From Gemmatimonadota bacterium (lineage in GTDB: Bacteria > Gemmatimonadota > Gemmatimonadetes > Gemmatimonadales > GWC2-71-9): DNA of 64,000 nucleotides. A model generated the notes under the pieces. It did no database searches. It was not told where the DNA came from and saw only the letters and a list, made by a program, of their open reading frames with translations. The stretch's first letter is position 1. Each line of letters opens with the position of its first letter. Shown here one piece after another: positions 13,822 to 21,080 of the stretch. The stretch is taken from the NCBI GenBank assembly GCA_040388535.1, contig JAZKBR010000001.1, positions 269,764 through 333,763 of the forward strand, read 5' to 3'. A program made the translations under genes and the position numbers.

Positions 13822-14871
13822 CTACTTCCTCGCCCCCGCAATCGCATCCAGCAGTGGCGCCGGATCGAAGCGCACCGGGTCGGTGCACGGCAGGCCGGTC
13901 TCCTTCGTGGCGGCTTCGCACGCCGCCCGCGCGGCAGCATCATCAAGATCGTAGGTGTTCATCGCGATGCCGATGACCTTGGTGGGATGCACCGCACCAC
14001 CGATCTCCTCGTACCACTTCACATACTGCGACAGCGGCGGAATCCGCAGCCAGCTCGCCTGACGATAGTCGCCGATGTATTCGCGCGTCGCCTGGTGACA
14101 GAGAATCATCGCATCGGGACAGGAGCCGTGCAGCAGGCCGAGCGTCACCCCGCTGTACCCCGGGTGATTGATGCTCCCCTGCCCCTCAACGAGCACCACG
14201 TCGGCACCCTCGGCGCCGCGCACCGTGATCTGCTCGGCCGCACCAGCGATGAAGTCGGCGACGACAGCATCGACACCGATCCCCCACCCTTCGATCATTA
14301 TCCCGGTCTGGCCAGTCGCCACGAAATTGGTCTTGATGCCGCGCTCGTTGAGCTTTCCCACGAGCTGCAGCTGCGCCGTCATCTTGCCGACGTTGCAGTC
14401 AGTGCCCACCGTGAGAACGCGCAACGCCTTGGTCCCCTTCGCCAGGCCGCTCGCAATCGGCAGGTTCGCCGGCGGGCGACGAATATCGGTGATGCTCCGC
14501 CCCGCCGCCTTCGCGGCCTCGGCAAGCTTCGGATCATCATTGAGGAAAGTGTGCAGTCCGCTCACAATGTCGCAGCCGGCAGCGAGTGCCTCGCGCAGCC
14601 ACTCGCGCCACTCGTCGGGGAGGCGTCCGCCCGCCGGCGCGATGCCGATGAGCACCGAGTTCGCACCGTGGTCGAGCCCTTCGCGCATCGAGGCGACGAC
14701 CGGGATGTCGCCGCCGAAACCGAGCACCTGCTGCGCCGTCTTGCCGGCGTTCTGCCGGTCGAGCACCGCTACCACCCGGTCGGGCTGGTAGCGGATCACC
14801 GAGTTTGCGGTCTTCGATGTCATCGGGCCGAAGTCACCATCGGCCACAATCAGGTGACGCAGCACGCTCAC
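13822..14871 (-). CDS. DUF1611/DgcN-family protein (P-loop N-acetyltransferase-like)
   Basis: The 349-residue protein belongs to the DUF1611 family. A characterised member, DgcN, acetylates D-glutamate in a D-amino-acid catabolic route. An N-terminal Rossmann-like domain (RVVAVLDRQNAGKTAQQVLG) precedes the P-loop domain with GTDCNVGKMTAQ (about residues 158-169). Further conserved segments are FVATGQTGIMIEG, DVVLVEGQGSINHPGYSG and LCHQATRE. It starts at a GTG overlapping the pspA stop as GTGA, so it is made with PspA. The epimerase partner DgcA is not in the window. Substrate here is uncertain, so no symbol is given. Confidence 0.75.
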   Translation of the reverse strand: MSVLRHLIVADGDFGPMTSKTANSVIRYQPDRVVAVLDRQNAGKTAQQVLGFGGDIPVVASMREGLDHGANSVLIGIAPAGGRLPDEWREWLREALAAGCDIVSGLHTFLNDDPKLAEAAKAAGRSITDIRRPPANLPIASGLAKGTKALRVLTVGTDCNVGKMTAQLQLVGKLNERGIKTNFVATGQTGIMIEGWGIGVDAVVADFIAGAAEQITVRGAEGADVVLVEGQGSINHPGYSGVTLGLLHGSCPDAMILCHQATREYIGDYRQASWLRIPPLSQYVKWYEEIGGAVHPTKVIGIAMNTYDLDDAAARAACEAATKETGLPCTDPVRFDPAPLLDAIAGARK

Positions 14872-15607: not shown

Positions 15608-15994
15608 TTACCTCTCCCCGAACGGCGCGAGTGCGCTCACGTGGGACGCAAGAGCCAGGGCGAGCGAATCGACGCTGGCCTCGAACTCGCTGAAGTCGAG
15701 ATCGGACAATTCCATGGCATCGGTGAGGACGACGTGATCTCCCTCGATGCCGTACGACCCGTGCACCAGGTCATGGGCGTTGTATTCGAGCAGGCGCCGG
15801 CAGAGCTCGGCCGACTTGGTCGCGTCGGCGGGCAGTGGCATCACCCGGACGCGGAGGACCAGCACCGGCGGCGCGAAATGCACCACCAGCTCGGCGTCCT
15901 CGGGCGTCTTCACGCGCCACATATCGTGCGCGACCAGCTCGACCGGCAGGTCGAGTCGATCGAGATAGGCCTGCACGTCTTCACGTGATGTCAT
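15608..15994 (-). CDS. YbjN-like / secretion-chaperone-fold protein next to pspA
   Basis: The 128-residue soluble acidic protein starts MTSREDVQAYLDRLDLPVEL and contains LLEYNAHDLVHGSYGIEGD and ELSDLDFSEFEASVDSLALA, typical of the YbjN/CesT-like fold (alternating beta-sheet and two helices). Such proteins often accompany PspA and are thought to be regulators or chaperones rather than enzymes. TTGGAGGAAG lies just before the ATG. It is placed between the nine-gene array and pspA, with a small hairpin upstream. Family assignment is from pattern resemblance; role is inferred from context. Confidence 0.65.
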   Translation of the reverse strand: MTSREDVQAYLDRLDLPVELVAHDMWRVKTPEDAELVVHFAPPVLVLRVRVMPLPADATKSAELCRRLLEYNAHDLVHGSYGIEGDHVVLTDAMELSDLDFSEFEASVDSLALALASHVSALAPFGER

Positions 15995-16043
15995 CGAACT
16001 TCCTCCAACCCGGGGGATCCGGGGGTAAGACGGGAAACGTAGT

Positions 16044-16062
16044 CCGGGCCATAACGGCCCGG
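16044..16062 (-). terminator. Small stem-loop between the nine-gene array and the ybjN-like gene
   Basis: CCGGGCC and GGCCCGG form a 7-bp stem with a 5-base loop just after the ninth paralogue's stop. No T-run follows, so it more likely tunes or processes the transcript than ends it. It lies in the only real gap (71 bp) of the operon. Confidence 0.4.
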
Positions 16063-16065
16063 CAA

Positions 16066-16428
16066 TCAGGCCGGCGGGTTGCTGTCCTGCTTCGCCAGCA
16101 GCCGCTCCGAGAAGTCCACGCGCTCTTCCAGTTCGCCTACCCGGGCACGCAACTCATCGAGTTCGGCGTAGAGCTCGTCGGGCACCTGCGCGACCATATC
16201 TTCGGCGTCGATCTGGCTCCGGCCGGCGATCCGGTCGGCGAGTGCCTTGCCCAGCGGGCCGCGGAGCGCGTAGGCGGCGCCGCCGACCGCGATGAACCAG
16301 ATCGGAATCGAGGCAGGGCCGAGCCGCTGGCTCACCTCGGTCAGTCCGCTGAAGAGAGCGATGACCGTGACGCCTACCAGAATGAATGGCCATCCCGATC
16401 CGCGATTTCGCCCGTTATCAACTCCCAC
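16066..16428 (-). CDS. PspB-like membrane/coiled-coil paralogue 9 of 9
   Basis: The 120-residue protein has two transmembrane segments (about 13-29 and 41-56), then RGPLGKALADRI (about 57-67). A predicted coiled coil ends in the family motif ELEERVDFSERLLAK (about 99-113). The start is a GTG at 16428 with an excellent AGGAGGT about six bases upstream. It overlaps paralogue 8 by 11 bases. It lacks the SGEVEAQF segment of paralogues 4-6 and 8, and its serine in DFSER is unique within the set. It is the last of the array before the ybjN-like and pspA genes. Resemblance to PspB is structural, not a proven homology. Confidence 0.8.
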   Translation of the reverse strand: MGVDNGRNRGSGWPFILVGVTVIALFSGLTEVSQRLGPASIPIWFIAVGGAAYALRGPLGKALADRIAGRSQIDAEDMVAQVPDELYAELDELRARVGELEERVDFSERLLAKQDSNPPA

Positions 16429-16831
16429 GACCCACCTCCTTCATCGGCTCGTTCTGCACCTGCGCCAGCAACCGTTCTGTGAAATCGAGTCGGTCCTCGA
16501 GTTCGGCGATCCGGCCAAACGCGGCCTCCACTTCCCCACTCGTCAGTCCGTGCTGCTCCAGATACGCCAGGCGCGACTCGAGGTTGCCCTGCATCACGGC
16601 GTCGCCCTGACGATCCCCTTCAAGCATCCCGGCGAGCGCTTTTCCCACCGGGCCACGGAAAATCAACCAGAACAGCCCCATGGCGCCGCTGATGCTGATC
16701 ATCGCCATGCGGGGGTCGCCCCCGCGGCGCGAGTCCAGCGTCACACTGGCAATGAACGCGAGCCCAGCGAGCCCCATTCCGAGCGCCAGGCCGACGCCAA
16801 GGAAACGGGAGAAGCGATTGCCGTTGCTCAT
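16418..16831 (-). CDS. PspB-like membrane/coiled-coil paralogue 8 of 9
   Basis: The 137-residue protein has two hydrophobic segments (about 10-31 and 42-58), the shared RGPVGKALAGML (about 59-70), the GLTSGEVEAAF block (about 95-105) and the motif ELEDRLDFTERLLAQ (about 110-124). Heptad-spaced hydrophobics from about residue 83 predict a coiled coil. Start and stop overlap both neighbours. It is closest to paralogue 7 in the final motif (DFTER) but to paralogues 4-6 in the SGEVEA block, suggesting stepwise duplication with divergence. Function unknown; probably inner membrane with a cytoplasmic tail. Confidence 0.8.
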   Translation of the reverse strand: MSNGNRFSRFLGVGLALGMGLAGLAFIASVTLDSRRGGDPRMAMISISGAMGLFWLIFRGPVGKALAGMLEGDRQGDAVMQGNLESRLAYLEQHGLTSGEVEAAFGRIAELEDRLDFTERLLAQVQNEPMKEVGRGS

Positions 16832-17211
16832 TGGCGCTCACCCGGCGGGAGCGCTTCCCGCTCGCGTTGCGAGATCATCCGTTCGGTGAAGTCGAGACGA
16901 TCCTCGAGCTCGGCCACGCGAGACTGCTCCATTGTCAGTTCGGCGATGCGCGCTTCAAGATCCTCCACCCGCATCGCAAGCTGATCATCGGCCGGGGGAT
17001 CACCCTCGAGCATCTTGCCGACGGCCTTGCCGATCGGGCCGAACATCAGCGCTGCGAACAGGACGCCCCCCGTCAAGAGTGCGAAGACGGGCATCGGGTT
17101 GTCGATGTTGCGGCCTTCATCCATCACGAAGGCGAGATACATCAGCCCCATCGCCGTGACACCGAGCGTGAGCATCAACCCGATTCCGCGCGATCCTCCC
17201 TTGTTGCTCAC
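16828..17211 (-). CDS. PspB-like membrane/coiled-coil paralogue 7 of 9
   Basis: Two transmembrane segments (about 9-30 and 41-58) are followed by FGPIGKAVGKMLEGD (about 57-71), a heptad region (RVEDLEARIAEL) and the motif ELEDRLDFTERMISQ (about 101-115). Total length is 127 residues. Where its neighbours carry GLTSGEVEAQF it has TMEQSRVA, a shorter linker, so it looks like a member that lost or never gained that block. It overlaps paralogues 6 and 8 by four bases each. No catalytic or metal-binding residues are evident; a structural or sensory membrane role is inferred. Confidence 0.8.
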   Translation of the reverse strand: MSNKGGSRGIGLMLTLGVTAMGLMYLAFVMDEGRNIDNPMPVFALLTGGVLFAALMFGPIGKAVGKMLEGDPPADDQLAMRVEDLEARIAELTMEQSRVAELEDRLDFTERMISQREREALPPGERQ

Positions 17212-17624
17212 GGCAGCCGCTCCTGTAGCGTAGGATCCACGCGCGCCAGCAGGCGCTCGGCAAAGTCGAGTCGATCTTCCACCTCGGCGAGTCGCGAGAA
17301 CTGCGCCTCGACCTCTCCAGAGCTCAGGCCGCGCGTTTCCATATTCGAGAGTCGCGCTTCGAGTTCCTCGAGCCGCATCGTGGCGAGATCATCGCGCGGG
17401 CCGGCCTCGAGCATCCCCTTGATGGCCTTGCCGACCGGGCCGAAGAGCAGCGAGCCGAAGATCGCCGTGCCCAATGCGAGCACGAAGATCGCCATCCCGT
17501 CGACCTCGCGTGGGACCTCGCGATGCATGTAGGGCTCGGCCACAGCGAACACGAACACCAGTGCCATCGCCGAGAGGCCGAGCGCCAGCACCATGCCCAT
17601 GAAGCGCGAACCACGGCCGCTCAC
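17208..17624 (-). CDS. PspB-like membrane/coiled-coil paralogue 6 of 9
   Basis: The 138-residue protein has two hydrophobic segments (about 8-30 and 44-61), a charged external-type loop between them (HREVPREVDG), FGPVGKAIKGML (about 61-72) and RLEELEARL. GLSSGEVEAQFSRL (about 99-112) and the motif EVEDRLDFAERLLAR (about 114-128) follow. It is the longest of the array. Four-base overlaps on both sides show tight translational coupling. Function unknown. Confidence 0.8.
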   Translation of the reverse strand: MSGRGSRFMGMVLALGLSAMALVFVFAVAEPYMHREVPREVDGMAIFVLALGTAIFGSLLFGPVGKAIKGMLEAGPRDDLATMRLEELEARLSNMETRGLSSGEVEAQFSRLAEVEDRLDFAERLLARVDPTLQERLP

Positions 17625-18022
17625 GGTTCACCTGCCGTCATGTGGCCTTCACCCTTGGTGAGCATCCGCTCGGCAAAGTCGAGCCGCTCTTCCACTTCGG
17701 AGAGTCGGGTGAACTGCGCCTCGACTTCGCCGGAGGTGAGGTTGCGCTGCTCCATCGATGCGAGTCGCGCCTCGAGATCTTCGACCCGCAGCGCCAGTTC
17801 CTCGTCGTGCTCGTCGCCCTCGATCATTCGTCCGAGCGAGCGGCCGAGGGGGCCACGCAGTGCGAACCACGACACGGCACCACCACCGGCGAGCGCCGTG
17901 AGGAGGTACTCGAAGCCTCGGCGACCGGGTTCATCGATGGCCCATGCGACGAACACCATGCCCATCACCGCCATGCTGATCGCGATCACCATTCCTGCAA
18001 TGCGGGAGTTTCGCATACTCAC
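17621..18022 (-). CDS. PspB-like membrane/coiled-coil paralogue 5 of 9
   Basis: Two hydrophobic segments (about 8-28 and 38-54) precede RGPLGRSLGRMIEGD (about 57-70), RVEDLEARLASM, NLTSGEVEAQFTRL (about 94-107) and the motif EVEERLDFAERMLTK (about 109-123). Length is 133 residues. The C-terminal 60 residues are nearly the same as those of paralogue 4, while the membrane part differs, so the coiled-coil module appears more constrained than the anchor. Start and stop overlap the neighbours by four bases. Function unknown. Confidence 0.8.
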   Translation of the reverse strand: MSMRNSRIAGMVIAISMAVMGMVFVAWAIDEPGRRGFEYLLTALAGGGAVSWFALRGPLGRSLGRMIEGDEHDEELALRVEDLEARLASMEQRNLTSGEVEAQFTRLSEVEERLDFAERMLTKGEGHMTAGEP

Positions 18023-18321
18023 CCCTCCCCTGCCGGGAGTGACGACTCGGTACGAGTGATCATCCGTTCGGCGAAGTCGAGCCGCTCTTCGACCTCGGCG
18101 AGCCGGTGGAACTGGGCTTCGACTTCACCCGATGTGAGGCCGCGGGTCTCGAGATCCGCGAGTCGGGCCTCGAGGGCCATGACCCGCTCGTCACCCGGGC
18201 CGGTCTTGGCATCGATGCGTCGGGCGAATGCCTTGATGATCGGCCCCATCGCCGACCAGAAGGCAAACTGGCCCAGGCCCATCGCAATCCAGAAGGCCAG
18301 ATCGCCGATGCCGTCGCCCAT
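18019..18321 (-). CDS. PspB-like membrane/coiled-coil paralogue 4 of 9
   Basis: This 100-residue member has only one hydrophobic stretch (about 7-28), then MGPIIKAFARRID (about 25-37), EARLADLETRGLTSGEVEAQ and the motif EVEERLDFAERMITR (about 76-90). It reads like paralogue 5 with the first membrane helix removed. It shares one base with paralogue 3 (stop/start) and four with paralogue 5. It marks the step between the short single-helix members (1-4) and the longer two-helix members (5-9). Confidence 0.78.
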   Translation of the reverse strand: MGDGIGDLAFWIAMGLGQFAFWSAMGPIIKAFARRIDAKTGPGDERVMALEARLADLETRGLTSGEVEAQFHRLAEVEERLDFAERMITRTESSLPAGEG

Positions 18322-18680
18322 CAGGCCCCTCCCTCACGCGGCAAGCGGATGACATCCTCCCGTTGTGCCAGCAATCGTTCAGCAAAGTCGACGCGCTCTT
18401 CCAGCTCCTGCATCCGCGCCACCTGCCCTTCGAGATCACCAACGCGCTCGCGCAGGTGATTCACTTCATCAATCAGATTCGGATCCATCGCGCCGGCTTC
18501 GTGCCGCCGCGCCCACGCGCGCGCCATCGGATAGAGCAGGATGCAGGCGATGATCGCGACCAGCGACATCACGATGACTGGGGCGAGCCACTCTGGCGGG
18601 CCGGCCGAGCCCGTGTCGACGACAATCCGGCCGAGGTCCGGCGGCGGAACGGGGGCCTGTGGTGCGGGAAACTGGATCAC
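18321..18680 (-). CDS. PspB-like membrane/coiled-coil paralogue 3 of 9
   Basis: The 119-residue protein has a proline-rich N-terminal stretch (about 1-30), one transmembrane helix (about 31-50), YPMARAWARRHE in the place of the GPxGKA box, a coiled coil (DEVNHLRERVGDLEGQVARM) and the motif ELEERVDFAERLLAQ (about 92-106). It is the most divergent N-terminus in the array, and its region before the helix would lie on the outer side if the tail is cytoplasmic. It overlaps paralogue 2 by four bases. Confidence 0.78.
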   Translation of the reverse strand: MIQFPAPQAPVPPPDLGRIVVDTGSAGPPEWLAPVIVMSLVAIIACILLYPMARAWARRHEAGAMDPNLIDEVNHLRERVGDLEGQVARMQELEERVDFAERLLAQREDVIRLPREGGA

Positions 18681-18964
18681 GATCCCCCCTGGTGGGCGTC
18701 TTCACGCCCCTTGGCGAGCAAGCGCTCGGCAAAGTCGAGCCGTTCGTGGACTTCGAGCAATTCGGCGCGCGCCTGATCGACATCGCCACGCAACTGCTCC
18801 ATCTCGGCGGAGAGCTCTTCGAACTGTTCGCGAGTGGAGGCACCCTTGTCGGCGCCACTGTTGTGACGAATGGCGTCGGCGATCGCGAGCCCGATCGAAC
18901 TCTTCGACACCACCACGACGAGTGGGATGCTCAGCGCGATGATCGGAATCAGTAGCGCGTTCAT
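18677..18964 (-). CDS. PspB-like membrane/coiled-coil paralogue 2 of 9
   Basis: The 95-residue protein begins with a membrane helix (about 3-20), then SSIGLAIADAI in the place of the GPxGKA box. A long charged heptad region (EQFEELSAEMEQLRGDV) leads to the motif EVHERLDFAERLLAK (about 71-85). In size and layout (short N-terminal helix, then coiled coil) this and paralogue 1 are closest to PspB of enterobacteria. It shares a single base with the end of paralogue 1. Confidence 0.78.
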   Translation of the reverse strand: MNALLIPIIALSIPLVVVVSKSSIGLAIADAIRHNSGADKGASTREQFEELSAEMEQLRGDVDQARAELLEVHERLDFAERLLAKGREDAHQGGS

Positions 18965-19233
18965 TATTGCCCGCCCCGGGCAGCGGCATCCTGAGACTCG
19001 TCGCTGCCCTTCGACAGCAGCCGTTCGGCGAAGTCGACTCGCTCCTGCAGCTCGGAAACATCAGTGCGGAGACGGTCGAGCTCGTCATAGATCTCGTGAT
19101 CGACTTCGGGAGGCGGGAGCTGCTGGACCCCGTGGCGGAGACGGTCGGCAATGGCCCGACCCAGTGGCGAAAACGACAACCCGACGACGGTCGCCCCACC
19201 GAAGATCAGTACAATCGCCAGAATGTCTTCCAC
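18964..19233 (-). CDS. PspB-like membrane/coiled-coil paralogue 1 of 9
   Basis: The first gene of the array encodes 89 residues: an N-terminal membrane helix (about 3-21), FSPLGRAIADRL (about 21-32), a linker, a coiled coil (YDELDRLRTDVSEL) and the motif ELQERVDFAERLLSK (about 61-75). A serine/glycine-rich tail follows. Its upstream gap of 76 bp holds the serine dehydratase terminator hairpin but no obvious sigma70 promoter, so how the array is transcribed is unclear. Small size and topology recall PspB. Function is unknown. Confidence 0.78.
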   Translation of the reverse strand: MEDILAIVLIFGGATVVGLSFSPLGRAIADRLRHGVQQLPPPEVDHEIYDELDRLRTDVSELQERVDFAERLLSKGSDESQDAAARGGQ

Positions 19234-19256: not shown

Positions 19257-19276
19257 CGCCCCCATTTACGGGGGCG
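19257..19276 (-). terminator. Hairpin between serine dehydratase and the nine-gene array
   Basis: CGCCCCC and GGGGGCG form a 7-bp stem with a 6-base loop, 33 bases past the sdaAA stop on the minus strand. It is followed by TTCC, so the T-run is weak. Confidence 0.55.
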
Positions 19277-19309
19277 CCTGCGAGAATGTTTCAGCCAGAA
19301 ACGACCGGA

Positions 19310-20864: not shown

Positions 20865-21080
20865 TCAGACCAGTTCTGCCGATTGGATTGCTTCCAGCGA
20901 GACGCCGATTTCGGTGTCGTCGTTGTGGAGCGGTCGGAGGAAGACTTCGTGCGCCGTGATATGGAGATCGACCACCGTCGGAACGCCGTGCACCTCGGTA
21001 CCGTCCCGCAGCACCAACTGGACCGGAAGCTCCTGTCCGTTGGCATAGCGCAGGGTTTCGATGATCAGATCGAGCGTCAT
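20865..21080 (-). CDS. Small conserved-looking protein of unknown function
   Basis: The 71-residue protein starts MTLDLIIETLRYANGQELPV and is mostly beta: QLVLRDGTEVHGVPTVVDLH, then HEVFLRPLHNDDTEIGVSLE. It resembles a small SH3- or Sm-like barrel, but the match is only by strand pattern. A clear AGGAG lies six bases before the ATG. It is followed after five bases by sdaAB, so it is probably co-transcribed with serine dehydratase. No cysteines or signal peptide. Confidence 0.6.
   Translation of the reverse strand: MTLDLIIETLRYANGQELPVQLVLRDGTEVHGVPTVVDLHITAHEVFLRPLHNDDTEIGVSLEAIQSAELV

Follow-up and report, generated by a model that had tools for sequence, protein, structure and literature searches.

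We analyzed a 64,000-nucleotide stretch of DNA from a Gemmatimonadota bacterium (assembly GCA_040388535.1, contig JAZKBR010000001.1, positions 269,764 to 333,763; hereafter the window) in which the membrane-repair gene pspA is preceded by an array of small genes, p1 to p9 in order of transcription. The array comprises nine consecutive open reading frames of 89–138 codons on the minus strand at 16066–19233, and neighboring frames overlap by 1, 4, 1, 4, 4, 4, 4, and 11 bases, in that order. The original prediction, made from the letters of the window alone, had described nine overlapping genes sharing one motif, and its coordinates, overlaps, and motif were all confirmed. Genes in the window follow the order uvrA, a gene for a 71-residue protein, sdaB, sdaA, p1–p9, a CesT/Tir-type gene, pspA, and a DUF1611 gene. 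The features of the array and its surroundings are:

19267..19293, minus strand: promoter-like site of the extracytoplasmic function (ECF) sigma type, TGAAAC-N17-CGTA, 33 nt before the p1 start codon
18964..19233, minus strand: p1, 89 residues, one membrane segment, motif ELQERVDFAER; first position type
18677..18964, minus strand: p2, 95 residues, one membrane segment, motif EVHERLDFAER
18321..18680, minus strand: p3, 119 residues, proline-rich N-terminal tail followed by one membrane segment, motif ELEERVDFAER
18019..18321, minus strand: p4, 100 residues, weak (aromatic) membrane segment, motif EVEERLDFAER
17621..18022, minus strand: p5, 133 residues, p5–p8 type
17208..17624, minus strand: p6, 138 residues, two membrane segments, p5–p8 type
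16828..17211, minus strand: p7, 127 residues, two membrane segments, p5–p8 type
16418..16831, minus strand: p8, 137 residues, p5–p8 type
16066..16428, minus strand: p9, 120 residues, final helix (84–115) modelled with high confidence; last position type
15608..15994, minus strand: CesT/Tir-type gene, PF22550 (CesT_Tir_1), E 1.5e-24, 86.8 bits
14868..15602, minus strand: pspA, PspA_IM30 (PF04012), E 3.5e-47
13822..14871, minus strand: DUF1611 gene, E 6.8e-74, overlapping pspA by 4 bases and often near pspA in relatives

All nine aligned copies keep E..[ED]R[VL]DF[AST]ER without exception. Seven alignment columns are invariant among them (M1, E99, R103, D105, F106, E108, and R109 in p9 numbering), and pairwise identity is 0.71 across the motif vs 0.07–0.17 further upstream. 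Hydrophobic residues follow a heptad pattern (alternating 3-4 spacing) at -20, -17, -13, -10, -6, -3, +1, and +8 relative to the motif arginine, such that the heptad core runs through the motif while the invariant D+2, F+3, E+5, and R+6 lie off the core. Two further features that had been ascribed to every copy hold for most: the GPxGKA box is clear in p4–p9 and degenerate in p1–p3 (SPLGRA, SSIGLA, YPMARA), and the predicted one or two membrane segments pass a simple hydropathy cut-off in 8/9 copies, the exception, p4, having no segment by this measure and an aromatic-hydrophobic N-terminus.

Most members of the wider family have one membrane segment by hydropathy and some have two. Because the stretch after the last segment carries net positive charge in 86% of members, the positive-inside rule would place the C-terminus in the cytoplasm. 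The proteins are thus predicted, from hydropathy and modelling, to have a PspB-type layout of N-terminal membrane anchor and cytoplasmic C-terminal helix. Types differ in their outer parts, with almost none in p1, p2, and p4, a proline-rich tail in p3, and probably a hairpin in p5–p9. For p9 the hairpin is unsure because the structure model (mean predicted local distance difference test score, pLDDT, 86; residues 84–115 a confident final helix) draws the membrane part as a single long helix. A fold search with this model returned zero matches, as is to be expected of bare helices. The frames appear to be under purifying selection, since estimated synonymous divergence (dS) exceeds nonsynonymous divergence (dN) in the p1 and p9 orthologue pairs for which estimates could be made (p1, dN 0.27–0.38 vs dS 1.4–3.9; p9, dN 0.35–0.56 vs dS 1.0–1.8).

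The original prediction took the nine genes for a large paralogue expansion. They do form a paralogue family, but not one recent expansion. In a tree of array members from the genus, built from short alignments with moderate support and a bootstrap not fully settled, the types keep the order p1, p2, p3, p4, p5–p8 type, p9, and the p5–p8 type has four copies in the window vs one or two in other species. By this comparison of sequences, the nine genes are six old positional types in fixed order, one of which has expanded to four.

Arrays of this family are consistently found beside pspA. A degenerate 10-residue form of the motif found 337 stretches among 84,980 species genomes, 197 of which proved on confirmation to be relatives. 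The 79 loci retained, from a listing of the best matches, are all from Gemmatimonadota. Individual counts could be wrong by one, because these loci overlap in part with our sets of other relatives and gene calls come from a codon-usage script. Wherever pspA is in view (64/79 loci), the array stands directly before pspA or a CesT-pspA pair (64/64); among the remaining 15, 11 run off the contig and 4 are single dispersed copies. The 58 complete arrays have 2–8 copies each, making the nine of the window the largest set seen. In relatives the array follows uvrA, or else sdaBA or the gene for the 71-residue protein with an Hfq-like fold (below). While the predicted linkage to pspA thus stands, that to the neighboring CesT-type gene is loose, as this gene is present at 28 arrays and absent from 36. 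The same gene had been called ybjN-like, an identity that we reject: YbjN (PF10722) scores 20.3 bits, below its cut-off of 22, vs 86.8 bits for CesT_Tir_1. The gap between p9 and the CesT-type gene (window 15995–16065) holds a short conserved element (CTACGTTTC), as does the corresponding gap in several genus members.

A tree of 48 PspA proteins, 27 of them from loci with an array and 21 from loci that lack one, requires just one change in array presence, a result repeated in 98% of bootstrap replicates. Since the tree is unrooted, a single gain is the simpler interpretation but is unproven. In the array-less bacterial families f2, f4, f5, and f7, uvrA and pspA, usually with the CesT-type gene, are still found together with nothing or other genes between them. 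We did not conclude that one genus member (G001) has lost the array, as its contig stops at pspA, nor did we count an apparent natural fusion of two copies in another genome (G036), where the 210-residue call contains an ambiguous residue and is most likely an unresolved assembly stretch.

The family extends well beyond these arrays. A profile built from the nine proteins finds the family in 36/41 related genomes; together with the confirmed motif relatives, this argues that the family is real rather than a chance collection of coiled coils. A wider profile of 118 members has matches in 128/150 genomes across the phylum, with 2–17 copies per genome in bacterial family f1 and mostly 1–5 in other families of the class, and zero matches in the listed genomes of another class. 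Three single-chromosome assemblies contain 23, 11, and 14 copies, most of them single genes without recurrent neighbors. Array-less bacterial families carry members at other locations (an orthologue between bshC-like and murJ-like genes, single genes, and tandem genes in f2), and the family is therefore of greater age or spread than its association with pspA.

Beyond the bshC-murJ and two-component-system locations, dispersed copies have no clear recurrent neighbors. The first of these locations, found in several bacterial families far from pspA, holds a member with the variant end LEEESQFLQKLL between the bshC-like and murJ-like genes (L239, L240, L243, L246, L079, and L231). At the second (L248, L249, L250, and L080), f2 genomes have two or three consecutive members that carry the variant motif VERISEGQRFTTKLLAER and in some cases a long N-terminal extension; they adjoin an NtrC-like response regulator, usually with a sensor-kinase-like gene on their other side. 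The labels bshC, murJ, kinase, and regulator are our own reading of the sequences, made with no database search, and should be taken as presumptive. The genome of the window contains two other members of interest. One is a TM2-like membrane protein that ends in the family motif (ELHERVEFTERLL; L071:6698–7081), and this C-terminal position suggests that the motif may be a portable module. The other is a single copy beside genes for a PadR regulator and a MacB/FtsX permease (L068:3180–9726).

The promoter-like site before p1 is distinctive within its genome. TGAAAC-N17-CGTA has only this match in the window, where 0.06 are expected, and a tighter form, TGAAACAT-N14/15-CGTA, occurs just once in the 3.7 Mb genome. 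TGAAACA...CGTA also precedes p1 in the intergenic sequences of 8/8 genus members inspected. Among the 79 distinct array sequences, 48 have (TGACAC or GAAAC)-N15-18-CGTA within 200 nt before the array (background 1.1%); with the spacer lengthened by five bases the count is 0/79. TGACAC entered the pattern once arrays lacking TGAAAC had been inspected, and the figure for TGAAAC alone (32/79 vs 0.5% background) is for this reason cleaner, even if TGAAAC was itself first seen in genus members. Boxes of the ECF type also precede 11/22 array-less pspA operons. A scan for sigma-70 promoters found no candidate before the array. A -35 box of the TGAAAC form usually doubles as one arm of a GTTTC-N5-GAAAC palindrome (22/32, with four or more of the five bases matching), and a repressor site is therefore also possible. 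A hairpin between sdaA and p1 is strong in the window and in one other genome (G004) and is not kept in other genus members.

The site resembles the consensus of Bacillus subtilis sigma-W, TGAAAC-N16-CGTA. An envelope-stress-type ECF signal ahead of a pspA operon, as the sequence suggests here, would be in keeping with other bacteria. The pspA gene is under sigma-W in B. subtilis (PMC3498285) and under sigma-E in Streptomyces coelicolor (PMC6767563), although both cases are from other phyla and are without a paralogue array.

PspB is the known protein to which the family comes closest. TIGR02976 (PspB) is the NCBIfam model matched by most members (27/118, best E 8.7e-7, 18,950 models), the next family having 13, and p9 matches its C-terminal half. 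Decoys shuffled within chemical classes matched TIGR02976 in 2/46 cases, with a best E of 0.079. The best score in the window, 16.3 bits, is nevertheless far from the cut-off of 51.7. Taken with the Pfam result given below, these comparisons speak for a possible remote similarity to PspB rather than for membership, and the original description as PspB-like survives for layout and C-terminal helix only. Furthermore, canonical partners of PspA are rare in this lineage: PspB (PF06667) scored over cut-off in 0/41 relatives, PspC was found in 3/41 and not in the genome of the window, and the array adjoins pspA with no pspC. Like PspB of the proteobacterial Psp system, the proteins are predicted to be small inner-membrane proteins with a short anchor and a cytoplasmic helix, encoded with pspA. 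Unlike that system, they have an invariant R.DF.ER that is not a PspB pattern, number two to nine different copies in each operon, probably including some hairpin forms, and are nearly always without PspC.

The array also departs from published Psp variants. The adjacency of CesT/Tir-type and PspA_IM30 genes in the window, the former directly before the latter, makes this a CesT/Tir-PspA operon, a dyad published by Ravi et al. in 2024 (PMC11237479). Described variants of that operon carry band-7, AAA+, or polyamine genes (PMC11237479), in contrast to the window. The same authors report PspB duplicated in some operons, not in arrays (PMC11237479); we found no membrane coiled-coil paralogue array among their variants, and neither "Gemmatimon-" nor "YbjN" occurs in the main text (PMC11237479). 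None of p1–p9 has a Pfam or NCBIfam model over cut-off, and the open-access literature that we searched, which leaves most subscription papers outside, contains no description of the family or of such arrays in Gemmatimonadota. As originally suggested, then, the family is undescribed in Pfam, NCBIfam, and the open-access literature searched.

A side observation concerns the neighborhood of the array. The 71-residue protein (window 20865–21080, minus strand) has no Pfam match, yet is modelled with an Hfq/Sm-like fold (pLDDT 95), and its best Foldseek matches are Hfq (E 7e-4). The Pfam Hfq model found nothing in 41/41 related genomes. On the modelled fold, this protein and its orthologues may be an unrecognized Hfq-like protein of the lineage.

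We favor, at about even confidence, the explanation that the array encodes a set of PspB-like membrane partners for PspA, induced by stress and acting as sensors or anchors. In its favor stand the fixed position of the arrays before pspA, the single change on the PspA tree, the invariance of the motif, the promoter-like site, the PspB matches, and the scarcity of PspB and PspC, along with the published ECF control of pspA and the published CesT/Tir-PspA dyad. Under such a mechanism an envelope-stress (ECF sigma) promoter would drive the array together with pspA or immediately ahead of it. A single helix or a hairpin would anchor each protein in the inner membrane, and the C-terminal part, a coiled-coil helix, would reach into the cytoplasm and end in a nearly invariant docking-like motif (R.DF.ERLL) common to all copies. 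Since the docking end is shared by all six types, unlike the membrane and outer parts, inputs of several kinds from the membrane or periplasm would meet at one common partner, most likely PspA, together with the CesT-type chaperone where present. PspA would then be recruited to, or released at, damaged membrane. A more tentative extension, which we regard as possible but rather doubtful, is that the Psp system is modular here: an ordered set of up to nine different membrane receptors, all with one docking motif and switched on together by an ECF factor, would serve PspA, and the lineage would tune its damage response by adding or dropping receptors.

Several observations weigh against the favored explanation. 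The promoter pattern as written is absent from 31/79 arrays, which often lie within ~35 bases of uvrA or belong to bacterial family f3. PspA in sister families runs without any array, and the PspA residues that differ with array presence amount to two conservative substitutions. Similarity to PspB falls under every curated cut-off, and the Pfam PspB model (PF06667) shows no excess of matches (3/118 members). Finally, dispersed copies far from pspA occur as single genes across the class, up to ~18 extra per genome, and the motif may consequently serve another partner.

One of two serious alternatives is that the copies assemble with each other, forming a heteromeric coiled-coil membrane bundle or scaffold, structural or channel-like, that works alongside PspA in one and the same stress response with no contact. 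The conserved order of the six types suggests that they are distinct subunits of a single complex, and the regular heptad core reaches the motif. We consider this rather unlikely, because a copy number of 2–9 fits poorly with a heteromer of fixed composition, the most conserved residues lie off the heptad core, and many members are single genes elsewhere. The other, which we also hold to be unlikely, makes the family a membrane adaptor of general use in Gemmatimonadota, its motif binding a different common partner in the cytoplasm and the pspA locus being simply a stress-induced operon that keeps extra copies. Single copies throughout the class, near murJ, a two-component system, transporters, or alone, would fit such a role, as would a PspA almost without array-linked change; however, large arrays occur only at pspA and are retained in all 27 sampled lineage members on the PspA tree, and pairs and trios elsewhere are few. 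An array of little function, left over from tandem duplication and gaining or losing copies neutrally, is very improbable: copy number does vary and the p5–p8 type is present four times in the window, but dS above dN, the invariant motif, conserved order and promoter, and no sampled loss in the lineage already largely refute it.

How PspA-type proteins (bacterial ESCRT-III) are recruited to damaged membrane is poorly known outside Proteobacteria and Firmicutes. In these soil and water bacteria, pspA is preceded by two to nine small membrane genes, and the locus is a bounded and genetically simple case in which a hitherto undescribed family of membrane proteins carries an invariant motif, a candidate for docking. 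Array-less relatives provide matched natural controls, and the promoter signature predicts when the array would be on. If the copies do bind PspA, the short motif would define a directly testable receptor interface.

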